Assembly (NCBI GenBank): GCA_902543295.1
Contig: CACBXW010000002.1
Location: 181,501-245,500 of the forward strand
Reading direction: 5' to 3'
Origin: an uncultured Pelagibacteraceae bacterium
Lineage (GTDB): Bacteria; Pseudomonadota; Alphaproteobacteria; Pelagibacterales; Pelagibacteraceae
Length of the DNA: 64,000 nucleotides
Shown here: one piece after another, positions 47,348 to 59,725 of the stretch
Layout of the letters: each line of letters opens with the position of its first letter
How positions within the stretch are numbered: position 1 is the stretch's first letter
Position numbers and translations under genes: made by a program
The notes under the pieces: model-generated
Databases searched by the model: none
What the model was told of the DNA's origin: nothing
Seen by the model: only the letters and a program-made list of their open reading frames with translations

Positions 47348-48321
47348 TTAAAAAATACTTTGAATTAAAAAATACAAATATAAATTTGAATTATATATAT
47401 CTAATTCATGGAAAAAATGAAGGACTTCAAAAACAAATACTAGATGAAAATTTTCTTAAGGATTTTAAAGGATCAATAAATAAATATGAACAAAACGAGT
47501 TTATAGAAAATTATGACATTATATTAAACGAAATTCTCACAAAATCTTTATTTGAAATTGAAAAAGTAATAATTATTTCAAGAGCAGATGATAAAATTTC
47601 AAAATATATTGAAGAGATTTTAGATAAAAATTTAAAAGATATCAAAATAATTTTAAAAAGTAGCATACTAGAAAAGAAATCAAAATTAAGAAATTTATTT
47701 GAAAAGAATAATTCTTTAGTTGCAATACCTGTTTATCCAGATGATGCAAAAAATTTATCATTGTTAGTTATGGAATTTATTAATAAAAATAATATAAAGT
47801 TATCTAGGGAGTCGATAAATTTACTCGTGGATAGGTCACAAGGAGATAGAGCTAATTTAAAATTAGAACTTGAAAAAATATTAAATTATTCATTAACAAA
47901 TAAAAAAATCGATACACTAAATGTTAAGAACTTAACAAATTTATCTGAAAATTATAGTGTGAATATACTTGCAGATAATTATCTTGCTAAAAATAACAAG
48001 GTTGTTTCAAAAATTTTAAACGAAAATAACTATACTGATGAAGATTGTATCTTAATACTAAGAACACTATTGAGTAAATCAAAAAGACTAATGAATATTA
48101 TTGAAAGATATAATGAAACCAAGAACTTAAATGAAGTGATATCTACCATTAAGCCTCCAATCTTTTGGAAGGATAAAGAAATAGTAAAAAAACAAGCAAG
48201 TAGTTGGAAAATTAAAGATCTTAAAAATAAAATTTACAATATAAATGAAGTTGAAGCTATGATTAAGGGAAATTCAAAGAGCTCATTAAATTTGTTATCA
48301 GATTTTATTGTAAATTATTAA
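47344..48321 (+). CDS. holA: DNA polymerase III delta subunit
   Basis: YLIHGKNEGLQKQIL...; DRSQGDRANLKLELEKIL; synteny. Confidence 0.88.
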   Translation: MIKKYFELKNTNINLNYIYLIHGKNEGLQKQILDENFLKDFKGSINKYEQNEFIENYDIILNEILTKSLFEIEKVIIISRADDKISKYIEEILDKNLKDIKIILKSSILEKKSKLRNLFEKNNSLVAIPVYPDDAKNLSLLVMEFINKNNIKLSRESINLLVDRSQGDRANLKLELEKILNYSLTNKKIDTLNVKNLTNLSENYSVNILADNYLAKNNKVVSKILNENNYTDEDCILILRTLLSKSKRLMNIIERYNETKNLNEVISTIKPPIFWKDKEIVKKQASSWKIKDLKNKIYNINEVEAMIKGNSKSSLNLLSDFIVNY

Positions 48322-49169
48322 TAATTTTTTTTTATAACATCAATAAGCCTGTCAAGCTGATCTATTCCTTTATACTCAATTGATAGAATTCCAGAATTAT
48401 TTTTTTTGTTATTCAGAACAACTCTCATGCCGATTTTCTGAGATAGATCACGTTCTGTTTCAAGTATATTTGAATCCTTTGACTTAAAAGATTTGGTAGA
48501 TCCATTTTTAAAAATTCTAACTAAACTTTCTAACTGTCTTACAGATAGTTTTTTTTTAATTATTTTATCTGTTAATAAAAGTGCATTTTCTAAACCAACT
48601 AAAACTTTAGCATGACCTTGTGAAATTTTATTATTTCTTATTAACTCTAGTATCTTTTCTGGTAGAGATAGTAAACGAATAGAGTTTGAAATATGCGATC
48701 TACTTTTTCCAATAAACTGGGAAACTTTTTCGTGATCGTATCCAAAATTTTTTATAAGATTATTGTAACTTTCAGCCTCCTCTACAGGATTTAGATCTTT
48801 CCTCTGAACATTTTCTATAATCGCTAATTCTAATGATTTTAGATTATCTGCATCAATAATGACTACAGGCACTTCATGAAGACCAGCTGATTGAGCTGCT
48901 TGCCATCTTCTTTCGCCTGCTATTAATTCAAATTTATCGTCTTGATCATCTGATTTTCTAACAATCAATGGTTGGATTATGCCTCTTTCTTTAATCGAAT
49001 TTTTTAATTCTTCTAAAGCCTCCTTTTCAAATAATTTTCTAGGTTGATTTTTATTTGGAACTATAGAACTTATAGAAATTTTATCTTTAGAAGACTTTAT
49101 GTCACTATCTCCTATTAGTGAAGATAGGCCTCTACCTAAGCCCTTCTTACTTTTAAAAGGATTTATCAT
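48318..49169 (-). CDS. parB: Chromosome-partitioning protein ParB
   Basis: GLGRGLSSLIGD, LIAGERRWQAAQSAGL, ENVQRKDLNPVEEAE. Confidence 0.98.
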   Translation of the reverse strand: MINPFKSKKGLGRGLSSLIGDSDIKSSKDKISISSIVPNKNQPRKLFEKEALEELKNSIKERGIIQPLIVRKSDDQDDKFELIAGERRWQAAQSAGLHEVPVVIIDADNLKSLELAIIENVQRKDLNPVEEAESYNNLIKNFGYDHEKVSQFIGKSRSHISNSIRLLSLPEKILELIRNNKISQGHAKVLVGLENALLLTDKIIKKKLSVRQLESLVRIFKNGSTKSFKSKDSNILETERDLSQKIGMRVVLNNKKNNSGILSIEYKGIDQLDRLIDVIKKNY

Positions 49170-49966
49170 GCAGCACTCTCCACTGGTTTATCTTGTTCTA
49201 AGAATTCATCAGTAAATTCAAAGTAAGCCTTACTTCCAGGACATATTTTGTCATATATTAGGACAGGTATTCCGTGAGATGGTGCCTCAGACAATCTAAC
49301 ATTTCTTGGCACAGCAGTTGAGTAAACTTTTTCTTTAAAATAGTTCCTTGCCTCTATCTCCACTTGACCCGAAAGCTTATTTCTCTTGTCGAACATTGTA
49401 AGCAGTATGCCTCTAATTTCTAATGTTGGATTTAAATTGGATTTTATCCTTTCTATAGTCTTCATGAGTTGAGTAAGCCCTTCTAATGCAAAAAATTCTG
49501 TCTGCAGCGGAACCACTAAAGAGTCGGAGGCCACCAATGCCATAATTGTAAGTAAACTTAGGGATGGAGGACAGTCAATTATTATGTAATCATACAGTGC
49601 TCTAGAATCATTTAAAATTAGGCCTAATTCGTCTTTTAATTTAAACGCCCTTCGGCTATCCCCGGCTGTTTCGACCTCAAGACCTGATAAATCAACATTT
49701 GAAGTTATTACATTTAGATTTTCAAAGCTTGATGGTTGTATAACTTCTGAAATTTTCTTATTTCCATTTAGAACACTGTAAATAGTATTCTCTGAGTTAG
49801 TTGTGTTAGTTAATCCAAGACCAGTTGAGGCATTACCTTGTGGATCTAAATCTATTACTAAAACTTTTTTTCCTTTCATTGATAGCCCTGCCGCTAGATT
49901 AATTACTGTTGTGGTTTTGCCCACTCCTCCTTTTTGATTTATTACTGAAATTATTTTTTTATCCAT
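49166..49966 (-). CDS. parA: Chromosome-partitioning ATPase ParA
   Basis: ISVINQKGGVGKTTTVINLAAGL, DLDPQGNAS. Confidence 0.98.
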   Translation of the reverse strand: MDKKIISVINQKGGVGKTTTVINLAAGLSMKGKKVLVIDLDPQGNASTGLGLTNTTNSENTIYSVLNGNKKISEVIQPSSFENLNVITSNVDLSGLEVETAGDSRRAFKLKDELGLILNDSRALYDYIIIDCPPSLSLLTIMALVASDSLVVPLQTEFFALEGLTQLMKTIERIKSNLNPTLEIRGILLTMFDKRNKLSGQVEIEARNYFKEKVYSTAVPRNVRLSEAPSHGIPVLIYDKICPGSKAYFEFTDEFLEQDKPVESAA

Positions 49967-50060: not shown

Positions 50061-50705
50061 TTAAACATTTTTTTTTTTTAGATTTGAAATTTTTACTATT
50101 AAAGATTGGTTACTTGTTAAACTTTTTTTTTCTTCATAATCAAAATTCCAATTCTCACGCGCATTATTAATAACTGTCTTTCCAGTCATACCTAAAAATA
50201 AAATAATATACTTAAATTTTTTAAAATTATTTTTTGCTATTTGAAAAATTATTGGCAAAGGTTTAAATGCTCTTGAAATTATAACATCCGTTGTTAAATC
50301 TTTTTCTCCAAAAATATTTTTTCGATGAATTTCTGAATTTAGACTAAATTTATCTGCCATTTCTCTTAAGAAAAGACTTTTGTGATAGCTCTTTTCATAG
50401 AAAATTAGCTTAAATAAAGGTTTTTTTGGTTTCATCAAAATACCTAAAACTATACCAGGTAATCCAGCGCCAGATCCCAGATCTGTGCAAACTTTTATAT
50501 CATTTTTATCAATAAAATCAATTATTTGAGCGCAATCTTCTATATGCCTTTTTTTTATGGAATTTTCAGTGCTTTTACTGATCAAATTTATTCTTTTATT
50601 TCTTGAAATAATTGCATTTGAATAGTCTTCTAATTCCTTTAATGTTCCACGTGAAACATTTGAGGATTTATCATTATATATTTTTAAAATATTCGAATCA
50701 ATCAA
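50061..50705 (-). CDS. rsmG: 16S rRNA (guanine527-N7)-methyltransferase
   Basis: [17 protein letters not shown]; mnmG-rsmG-parA synteny. Confidence 0.95.
50643..50658. promoter_or_regulatory. parS: parS centromere-like site inside rsmG
   Basis: tgttccacgtgaaaca, 15/16 match to TGTTTCACGTGAAACA. Confidence 0.9.
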
Positions 50706-56630: not shown

Positions 56631-57623
56631 TTATATATGTTTTTCAATCAAATTTTTTAACAAAAGTATGTGATCATCGCTGTCATTTAGACAAGGAACC
56701 ATGTCAAAATTTTCTCCACCAGACTCTATGAAGCTCTCTTTGCCTTGTATAAGTATTTCTTCTAATGTTTCGACACAATCAGAAGAAAAGCCCGGACATA
56801 TAGCAAGGACATTTTTTTTTCCTTCTTTTGGGAGCTCTTCTAAAGTTTTGTCTGTATAAGGTTGTAACCATTTCTGTGGTCCAAACCTTGACTGAAATGT
56901 AGTTTTAATTTCAATTGAGTTTAGTTTTTCGGTAATTAGCCTTGTCGTTTTATGACAATAACAATGGTAAGGATCACCTTTGTCAAAATATTTTTTCGGG
57001 ATTCCATGATAAGAAGCCAATATTAAATCTGGTTTCCAATCAATCTCACTGATTTTTTTATTTATAGATTTTACCAATGCCTCTATATACAAAGGATCAG
57101 ATTCATAGTGCGGTATTATTTTTAAGGAAGGCTGCCATCTCATTTTCATGAGTGTTCTATAAACCTCGTCGCAAACTGTGGCTGTAGTAGCCGCAGCATA
57201 TTGAGGGTATAGAGGTAAGATTACTAAATTTTCACATCCCTCTAATTGTAGTTTTTCTATTTTACTTTTAATACTTGGATTTCCGTATCTCATTGCAAAA
57301 TCTATAATTAGATTTTCATTTTTTAGATAGTTAGAAGTCTTTTCCATTTGTTTTTTTGTATAATAAAGTAATGGAGACATATTTTTGTCTTTCATCCAAA
57401 TTTCTTTATATGCTTTAGCTGTTTTAGAGGGTCTAAACGTAAGAATAAAGAGATTAAGAATTATTTGCCAAATAATTGGGTTTACTTCGATTACTCTCCT
57501 GTCGGATAAAAATTCCTTTAAATATTTTCTTATATCAGACCAACTAGTAGAATCAGGAGTTCCTAGATTGATCAATAACACTCCCGTCTTTCCAAATTTT
57601 ATTGGTGGGTGTTCTTCTTTCAT
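56631..57623 (-). CDS. hemH: Ferrochelatase
   Basis: VLLINLGTPDS, LPLYPQYAAAT, SYHGIPKKYFDKGDPY. Confidence 0.97.
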   Translation of the reverse strand: MKEEHPPIKFGKTGVLLINLGTPDSTSWSDIRKYLKEFLSDRRVIEVNPIIWQIILNLFILTFRPSKTAKAYKEIWMKDKNMSPLLYYTKKQMEKTSNYLKNENLIIDFAMRYGNPSIKSKIEKLQLEGCENLVILPLYPQYAAATTATVCDEVYRTLMKMRWQPSLKIIPHYESDPLYIEALVKSINKKISEIDWKPDLILASYHGIPKKYFDKGDPYHCYCHKTTRLITEKLNSIEIKTTFQSRFGPQKWLQPYTDKTLEELPKEGKKNVLAICPGFSSDCVETLEEILIQGKESFIESGGENFDMVPCLNDSDDHILLLKNLIEKHI

Positions 57624-58621
57624 TTATAATTTCTCACTGTTTGTACAAGTTCATAAACCATATCAACTTCAGTTTCAGGCAAAATGCCATGACCCAAGTT
57701 AAAGACGTAAGGATGGTCTTTAAATATATTCAGATACTTCTTAATTTGTTTTCTTAGGTTTTCTTTATCGGATAAAAGGATCTTTGGATCTAAACCTCCC
57801 TGTACTGGCACATCCAAATATTTAATTAAATTTTCAGGATCTACGTTATAATCAATATTTATCATACTAGGCTTAACAATATTAGTGAATTTAATATAAT
57901 CAGTGATGCCTCTAGGGAAACATATAACAGGTACACCTAAATTTTTTACATGGTTTACAAGAGATAAGGTTGGATTATATAAAAATTTATCAAAGTTATT
58001 TTGTATTAAACCAGCCCAACTATCAAATATTTGAATTATTGTAGCACCAGCTTTTATTTGGTTTTCAATATGAATTTTAATAAATTTATCCAACAAAGTT
58101 AAAATTTCATTAATTATAACCTCGTCTTTAAAAAAATCATAAGATAGTCCATTCTTAGGTGAAACTTTGTTTACCATATATACCAAAAGCGTCCATGGGG
58201 CCCCTACAAAACCAATTAAATCTTTGTTTTTGAGATCATTACTATTTTTAAGATTAGACAATAGTTTATATACAGGGGATAATTTTTCTGTTAGATCCTT
58301 CCTACTTACACTTGCGAGTTTATTTAATTCAAAAGCTCCTAGACTTGGACCAAAATTTTTTTTAAACTCAACAATCTGACCCATACCATGTGGTATCATT
58401 AGTATATCTGAGAATATTATTGCAGCATCAAAACCAAATCTTTTTATCGGCTGTAATGTTATTTCTTCAGCTAAAGTATGATTTAAGCATAATTTTATGA
58501 AATCTGGGTTTGCTTTTCTAATTTCTCTGAATTCTGGTAGATATCTGCCAGCTTGCCTCATTAACCATACTGGATTAACCTTAGTGTTTTTGTTTATCAA
58601 ACATTCTTTTATTGGTGTCAT
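57620..58621 (-). CDS. hemE: Uroporphyrinogen decarboxylase
   Basis: PVWLMRQAGRYLPEFREIR, FVGAPWTLLVYM, FNLGHGILPETEVDMV. Confidence 0.98.
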   Translation of the reverse strand: MTPIKECLINKNTKVNPVWLMRQAGRYLPEFREIRKANPDFIKLCLNHTLAEEITLQPIKRFGFDAAIIFSDILMIPHGMGQIVEFKKNFGPSLGAFELNKLASVSRKDLTEKLSPVYKLLSNLKNSNDLKNKDLIGFVGAPWTLLVYMVNKVSPKNGLSYDFFKDEVIINEILTLLDKFIKIHIENQIKAGATIIQIFDSWAGLIQNNFDKFLYNPTLSLVNHVKNLGVPVICFPRGITDYIKFTNIVKPSMINIDYNVDPENLIKYLDVPVQGGLDPKILLSDKENLRKQIKKYLNIFKDHPYVFNLGHGILPETEVDMVYELVQTVRNYK

Positions 58622-58903
58622 TTATATTAAGATAATTATATTTAGTATTTATTATTAGTATGTATTGTTGATAACGTAAATTACTCAATTTCAACACTTT
58701 ATTAACTTTTTTTACATCTCACTGGCTAAAAAACCCTTTAAAAACAAGTCTATTTAATTATTTTACAAAACTTTAAAATTGTTAATAAGTTATCCACATT
58801 AATTTTAAATGTTAATTAAATGAGTAAAAAAAATGTTTCTTTTAGAATTTTACTAATTGAAAATGATTTCTTAATTTTAAATTAATTTATAAACAAATTA
58901 TAC
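58622..58903. other. oriC: Putative chromosomal replication origin (oriC)
   Basis: Longest non-coding gap in the window (282 bp), between hemE and the RP001/DUF299 homolog as in Caulobacter and Rickettsia; perfect DnaA box TTATCCACA 58790-58798, near-match TTATCAACA on the minus strand 58666-58674; parAB/parS nearby. Confidence 0.75.
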
Positions 58904-59725
58904 ATGAAAAATACACATCAAATATTCTTGATTTCTGACTCAACGGGTGAGACATTGGACAGAATTTTTATGGCTTTAAAAGCCCAATTTAATAACTTTA
59001 ATTATGAACTAAATCAATTTTCTTTTACAAGAACAGAGAGCCAAATATCAACAATACTTAAAAATGCAAAAGAACAAGACAGCCCTATCATATTATACAC
59101 TGTGGTTAATAGTAAACTTGCAAAGTTTTTAGCTGAAGAAGCAAATAGAATTAGCGTGCCTTGTTTTGGCGTTCTAGGAGATTTGATTTTAAATTTTTCA
59201 AAAATTCTTAATCAAAAAGCAACTCATAAACCTAGTGGTCAACACGCTCTAGACGATGAATATTACAAAAGAATTGAAGCAATTCAATTTACAATGAACC
59301 ATGATGATGGCAATCAAACAGGAAATATACTTGAGTCAGATATTATATTAATAGGTGTTAGTAGAACAAGTAAAACACCAACTTCTATTTATTTGGCTAA
59401 TAAGGGATTAAAAACTGCTAATATTCCATTAGTAAATGAAATGCAAATACCTAAAGATGTGACCGAGTCAAGCAACCTATGTGTTGTTGGATTAGTAACA
59501 GAAGCTGAAAGATTGTTTGATATTCGTCGTAATAGATTAAATTCGCTCAGGGAAAAAGAAGCATCCGATTACACAGACTTAGAAAAAATTAAAATTGAAG
59601 TAGAACAATCAAAAAAAATCTTTAAAAAAAATAAATGGCCCACGATAGATGTAACAAGAAAGTCAGTTGAAGAAACTGCTGCATCAATTATCAAAATATA
59701 TGAAATAAAAAATAAAAATGCATAA
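58904..59725 (+). CDS. ppsR: Pyruvate,phosphate dikinase regulatory protein (DUF299; RP001-like)
   Basis: HQIFLISDSTGETLDRI, HKPSGQHALDDEYYKRIEAIQFTMNHDDG, ILIGVSRTSKTPTSIYLANKG. Confidence 0.95.
   Translation: MKNTHQIFLISDSTGETLDRIFMALKAQFNNFNYELNQFSFTRTESQISTILKNAKEQDSPIILYTVVNSKLAKFLAEEANRISVPCFGVLGDLILNFSKILNQKATHKPSGQHALDDEYYKRIEAIQFTMNHDDGNQTGNILESDIILIGVSRTSKTPTSIYLANKGLKTANIPLVNEMQIPKDVTESSNLCVVGLVTEAERLFDIRRNRLNSLREKEASDYTDLEKIKIEVEQSKKIFKKNKWPTIDVTRKSVEETAASIIKIYEIKNKNA

Follow-up and report, generated by a model that had tools for sequence, protein, structure and literature searches.

The hemE–ppsR intergenic region as the very probable, compact replication origin of a SAR11 bacterium

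The hemE–ppsR gap among described origins

The origins of Caulobacter crescentus (Cori) and Rickettsia are located in the intergenic region between hemE and a COG1806 gene, and those of Wolbachia, Ehrlichia, and Anaplasma between hemE and a COG1253 gene (PMC1914354). A basal unwinding system consisting of DnaA boxes and a DnaA-trio has been described in Bacillus subtilis (PMC8287927).

Here, we analyzed a 64-kb window (positions 181501-245500 of contig C2) of a SAR11 genome, G000, which comprises 1.31 Mb in 17 contigs. SAR11 bacteria form one of the most abundant bacterial groups of the ocean. In the open-access literature searched, we found no paper identifying their origin by sequence. In the window, hemE (57620-58621, minus strand; 305.4 bits to TIGR01464, cut-off 302.95) and ppsR, an RP001-type DUF299 gene of COG1806 (58904-59725, plus strand; 314.4 bits to NF003742, cut-off 225), bracket a gap of 282 bp (58622-58903), making it a hemE–COG1806 intergenic region. 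An initial annotation had named the same two neighbors, for which both profile scores exceed the cut-offs, and had proposed that the gap is an origin. Our results support this proposal through a cluster of DnaA boxes, the conservation of these boxes, and a strand asymmetry that changes at or near the gap. Thus, the entire hemE–ppsR intergenic region is very probably the chromosomal replication origin (oriC) of this bacterium and, by its location, probably a compact member of the Caulobacter/Rickettsia group.

Like Cori and the Rickettsia origins, the gap has these flanking genes, DnaA boxes, and an AT content above the genome average (16.3% GC as compared to 29.2% for the window). However, it is shorter than the 383-404 bp of those origins, its boxes are mostly of a degenerate form (TTATNNACA), and it carries no IHF consensus; moreover, no CtrA of G000 scored above the cut-off of the curated model, and the CcrM site GANTC seems to be avoided despite a CcrM homologue. 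With the Wolbachia, Ehrlichia, and Anaplasma origins, the SAR11 gap shares hemE as one neighbor, a small number of DnaA boxes, and AT richness, but those origins span ~385-620 bp and have COG1253 as the neighbor, which in SAR11 is ppsR, or maf in a sister family. Finally, the gap resembles the basal system of B. subtilis in that a box, a 4-nt spacer, at least three triplets with a middle A, and AT-rich DNA follow one another, with the strands arranged alike. In contrast to B. subtilis, the triplets are mostly 3'-TAT-5' with one 3'-GAT-5', and one clear box rather than two stands beside the tract.

As the initial annotation had pointed out, the gap is the longest non-coding stretch of the window. 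A stretch of 591 bp (2311-2901) that the ORF scan had left open holds two short minus-strand ORFs, one encoding a cysteine-rich protein of 59 amino acids and the other a protein of 79 amino acids. No tRNA or Rfam RNA was detected in the 64-kb window. The partition genes were likewise found 8-10 kb from the gap, where they had been noted before: parB and parA, named from ORF translations, occupy 48318-49966 on the minus strand, and a parS-like site, TGTTCCACGTGAAACA, with one mismatch to TGTTTCACGTGAAACA, lies at 50643-50658 on the plus strand.

DnaA boxes and the adjoining triplet tract

All three DnaA boxes listed in the initial annotation were present in the gap. The number of TTATCCACA boxes was rejected as evidence for an origin because they are not enriched: with up to one mismatch, there were 24 matches in the window against 20.8 expected, and perfect boxes numbered 9 in the whole genome as compared to 17 for the reversed control. 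We fetched 80 SAR11 loci with ppsR; in 78 of these, hemE adjoins ppsR in the same arrangement, which together with the window gave 79 gaps. Their alignment revealed that the SAR11 box is a degenerate TTATNNACA, in which the outer bases hold while the two center bases vary. This settles the earlier concern that a compact origin with so few clear boxes would be unusual. The commonest forms were TTATTAACA and TTATAAACA, with the exact TTATCCACA accounting for 5 of the 239 boxes in the 79 gaps. The source genome encodes a DnaA with the domain IV motif RDHTTV, and we infer that SAR11 DnaA reads the degenerate box.

The gap contains four TTATNNACA sites as compared to 0.26 expected, a number reached in none of 2000 shuffles, although this score is partly circular because the alignment that defined TTATNNACA includes the window. 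A scan of C2 and of the complete 1.2-Mb genome G018 showed that the densest 282-bp window of each is the hemE–ppsR gap; G018, like other genera, was absent from the defining alignment yet is only partly independent of it, and the other contigs of the source genome were scanned for perfect boxes only. The conservation on which the initial annotation had made its proposal depend was also observed, as the 79 orthologous gaps carry on average 3.03 TTATNNACA sites (0.32 expected), and these occupy fixed positions. The exact TTATNNACA was absent from the gaps of G061 and G003.

Box 1 (TTATCAACA, 58666-58674, minus strand) adjoins the triplet tract and is an exact TTATNNACA in 61 of the 79 gaps, with high per-base conservation of the outer bases and low conservation of the two in the center. 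It is directly abutted by TAATTTACG (58675-58683, minus strand), part of a strongly conserved CGTAAATTA block, which matches five of the seven core bases and is a possible second, degenerate box. Box 2 (TTATTAACA, 58780-58788, minus strand), kept in 52 of 79 gaps, stands back to back with box 3 (TTATCCACA, 58790-58798, plus strand), which is a perfect box and whose position is occupied by a TTATNNACA site in 32 of 79. The position most often kept (62 of 79) is that of box 4 (TTATAAACA, 58887-58895, plus strand), which lies 8 bp ahead of the ppsR start and had been overlooked earlier; it is occupied likewise in G058, G014, G018, and G009-G012, and beside rho in G007. A further TTATNNACA site recurs in 18 of 79 gaps at the position corresponding to 58710 (plus strand). 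We also noted a conserved TGTTAATTAAA block (58811-58821), which reads as a one-mismatch box, TAATTAACA, on the minus strand and reaches 1.51 bits per base as compared to a gap mean of 1.17.

The length of the gap is nearly constant as well. Almost all of the 79 gaps measure 278-288 bp (two shorter ones have 254 and 271 bp), with hemE identity down to 61%. In a set of 98 Pelagibacteraceae hemE–ppsR gaps with hemE identity down to 46%, lengths range from 254 to 288 bp (median 281, SD 5.7). Within the alignment of the 79 gaps, conservation is concentrated in islands, most of which are DnaA boxes; base by base, the footprint of a box is visible as mostly conserved TGT and ATAA with two free bases in the center.

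Next to box 1, at a spacing of 4 nt, lies a DnaA-trio-like tract, TAT TAT TAG TAT (58650-58661, plus strand), which read 3'-5' from the box is TAT, GAT, TAT, TAT. An A in the middle of four successive triplets was present in 97% (weighted) of the 79 gaps, in one register only. Reading from the box, variation is mainly seen at the base that opens each triplet, and the G shifts between the second and the third unit. A 3'-GAT-5' triplet closest to the box characterizes the basal unwinding system; within the genus, the GAT is the second or third triplet, and in G001, of the sister family, the tract is TAGx4. The published search rule for DnaA-trios demands a box, a spacer of up to 16 bp, and at least three (.A.) repeats (PMC8287927), and the tract with box 1 conforms to it, on the right strand. 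The pattern TA[TGA]x4-N4-TGTnnATWW matched C2 once, at the tract and box 1 (58650-58674). Over the genus, a strict pattern of trio plus box proved too narrow, being found in 16 of 201 genomes, with one match in each and none for the reversed control. In G018, the triplets are partly broken.

Between the tract and hemE lies an AT-rich stretch (58622-58649), a putative DNA-unwinding element. The least stable 40-mer of the window starts at 58622, and the minimum of duplex stability averaged over the relatives is also found at the hemE end of the gap. As a general marker of the unwinding element, however, the least stable DNA fails in G018, where the minimum is central in the gap.

Chromosome-scale asymmetry and alternative readings

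We examined the strand asymmetry of three relatives, placing the terminus opposite the candidate point. G018 was read whole, while G017 and G058 (1,308,759 bp; the latter presumably HTCC1062) were sampled at ~30%; because most of the gene order is common to SAR11 genomes, these three do not count as independent cases. The co-orientation of genes peaked at the gap in G018 and G017 (offset 0.00 genome lengths) and next to it in G058 (+0.02), with 64-68% of coding bases co-oriented. In G018, where the gap is at 66.8 kb, a free two-point fit placed the change in synonymous T/A at 50-60 kb; gene direction was best split at 20 kb and 670 kb, positions up to 100 kb scoring almost as well. Pooled synonymous G/C asymmetry peaked at the gap, and pooled synonymous T/A asymmetry at -0.08 genome lengths, toward hemE, on a broad plateau. 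Thus, in the relatives, the gap or its vicinity is where both strand asymmetry and gene direction switch. At synonymous sites of all three genomes, T is scarcer relative to A on the presumed leading strand.

The initial annotation had expected a minimum of cumulative GC skew at the gap. In G018, the raw minimum lies nearby, at 31 kb (within 2.6% of the genome), the maximum is 7 kb from the antipode of the gap, and the range exceeds that of all 1000 block shuffles. On C2, the raw minimum is found at 208.6 kb, which is 31.5 kb from the gap toward hemE, and the skew follows gene direction; since the contig ends 27 kb past the gap, this skew is a weak test and was rejected as a decisive one. One study with a skew model counts HTCC1062 among chromosomes whose arms are unequal (PMC2099444). 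A search for a dif site as terminus marker gave a best match with seven mismatches, and dif/Xer has been reported absent in Pelagibacter (PMC2731167).

The gene dnaA, 63-64 kb from the gap on the hemE side, would itself mark the origin under the rule that oriC is the first base of dnaA, which was applied to a set of chromosomes including that of P. ubique (PMC2031905). The T/A plateau takes in dnaA, and in HTCC1062, this asymmetry is somewhat better at dnaA than at the gap (18.9 versus 14.3). Co-orientation, however, is lower at dnaA than at the gap in each of the three genomes (0.621 versus 0.642, 0.634 versus 0.682, and 0.635 versus 0.662), neither C2 nor G018 shows a comparable cluster of boxes in any window near dnaA, and parABS and the conserved element are found at hemE–ppsR instead, which makes an origin at dnaA very improbable. 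It is less probable still that the flip point is the terminus and the origin lies opposite. Although the sign of the synonymous G/C asymmetry in G017 and G018 is unusual, being opposite to that in HTCC1062, under such an arrangement the forks would meet some two thirds of coding bases head-on, the sign of the raw GC skew would be wrong, and the terminus would be the site of the DnaA boxes and of parABS; we consider it scarcely credible.

Between these two in probability, and likewise very low, is the reading of the gap as merely a region of divergent promoters for hemE and ppsR, possibly under DnaA control, with the origin elsewhere. The flanking genes do diverge, and a nearly invariant TTATAC (58898-58903, plus strand; 1.94 bits per base in the 79 gaps) directly precedes the ppsR ATG. 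This motif may be a promoter or translation-start element or possibly part of the origin; no obvious ribosome-binding site is seen there, consistent with a possible leaderless start or promoter element. The element nevertheless survives changes of its neighbors. The hem genes do not adjoin ppsR in either G007 or G008. In G007, rho borders the gap directly, and this rho–ppsR gap has 353 bp and three boxes, one of them just ahead of ppsR; these three boxes recur in the corresponding stretch of G008. The sister-family genomes G001-G003 lack ppsR, and a similar gap there separates hemE from maf (280 bp in G001 and 271 bp in G003; maf adjoins hemE in G002 too). In G001, the hemE edge of this gap carries TAGTAGTAGTAG, while G002 and G003 have a deviant form with TTG-type triplets there. 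The survival of the element after replacement of hemE by rho and after loss of ppsR argues against the gap being simply a promoter of hemE or ppsR. Furthermore, a promoter does not call for register-locked triplets beside a DnaA box, gene direction flips at or near the gap, and in the complete genome G018, the largest cluster of boxes is that of the gap.

Together, our reading of the gap as oriC follows from the TTATNNACA cluster, the fixed positions of the boxes and the fixed gap length, the box footprint, the trio-like tract, and the low duplex stability, combined with the co-orientation peaks, the skew, the persistence of the element without hemE or ppsR as a neighbor, and the proximity of parAB and parS.

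Putative initiation and its regulation

From the anatomy of the gap, we infer how initiation at this oriC could proceed. DnaA would bind box 1, assisted by boxes 2-4 and probably also by the weak abutting box. A filament of ATP-DnaA would then grow from box 1 toward hemE onto the triplets at 58650-58661, as in the basal system of B. subtilis, and the AT-rich stretch at 58622-58649 would melt and receive the helicase. Two forks would then move apart, each running in the direction in which most genes of its arm are transcribed. A further suggestion, which we regard as possible but rather doubtful, is that the SAR11 origin is an unusually small, stripped one that consists nearly entirely of weak boxes degenerate at two bases and a diverged trio, is kept free of CcrM sites, and works without CtrA, its timing being set by the level of DnaA alone. 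With a fixed origin, the peak-to-trough ratio of read depth in ocean metagenomes would give access to growth rates, and a 282-bp DNA with compact, conserved parts offers a test of how little a DnaA origin needs.

Regarding CtrA, none of the four Trans_reg_C proteins of the source genome passed NF045991, the best score shown being 128.4 against a cut-off of 350. The motif TTAAN7TTAA was present in 44 of the 98 gaps; DNA this rich in AT yields it easily, and with no CtrA gene above the cut-off of the model, CtrA sites were rejected as an origin feature. Some origins of the hemE–COG1806 group have few or no CtrA sites (PMC1914354), and therefore, the missing CtrA does not exclude membership in that group. 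The strict IHF consensus WATCAAN4TTR was absent from 58622-58903 and present in 8 of the 98 gaps; a looser consensus is used in PMC1914354.

A CcrM homologue has been reported for SAR11 (PMC3973325). The source genome encodes one at C3:194500-195159, which scored 578.8 bits to NF050803, below the strict cut-off of 830. A second methyltransferase gene (PF01555) lies just past the window, at C2:257145-257816; no such second gene was seen in G018 or G058. In Pelagibacter, GANTC methylation was found to be lower near the origin, as set by GC skew (PMC9516812). The 98 gaps together contained two GANTC sites as compared to ~34 expected, while other intergenic DNA was near expectation; the gaps being mutually related, this result is suggestive of an avoidance of GANTC in the hemE–ppsR gap.
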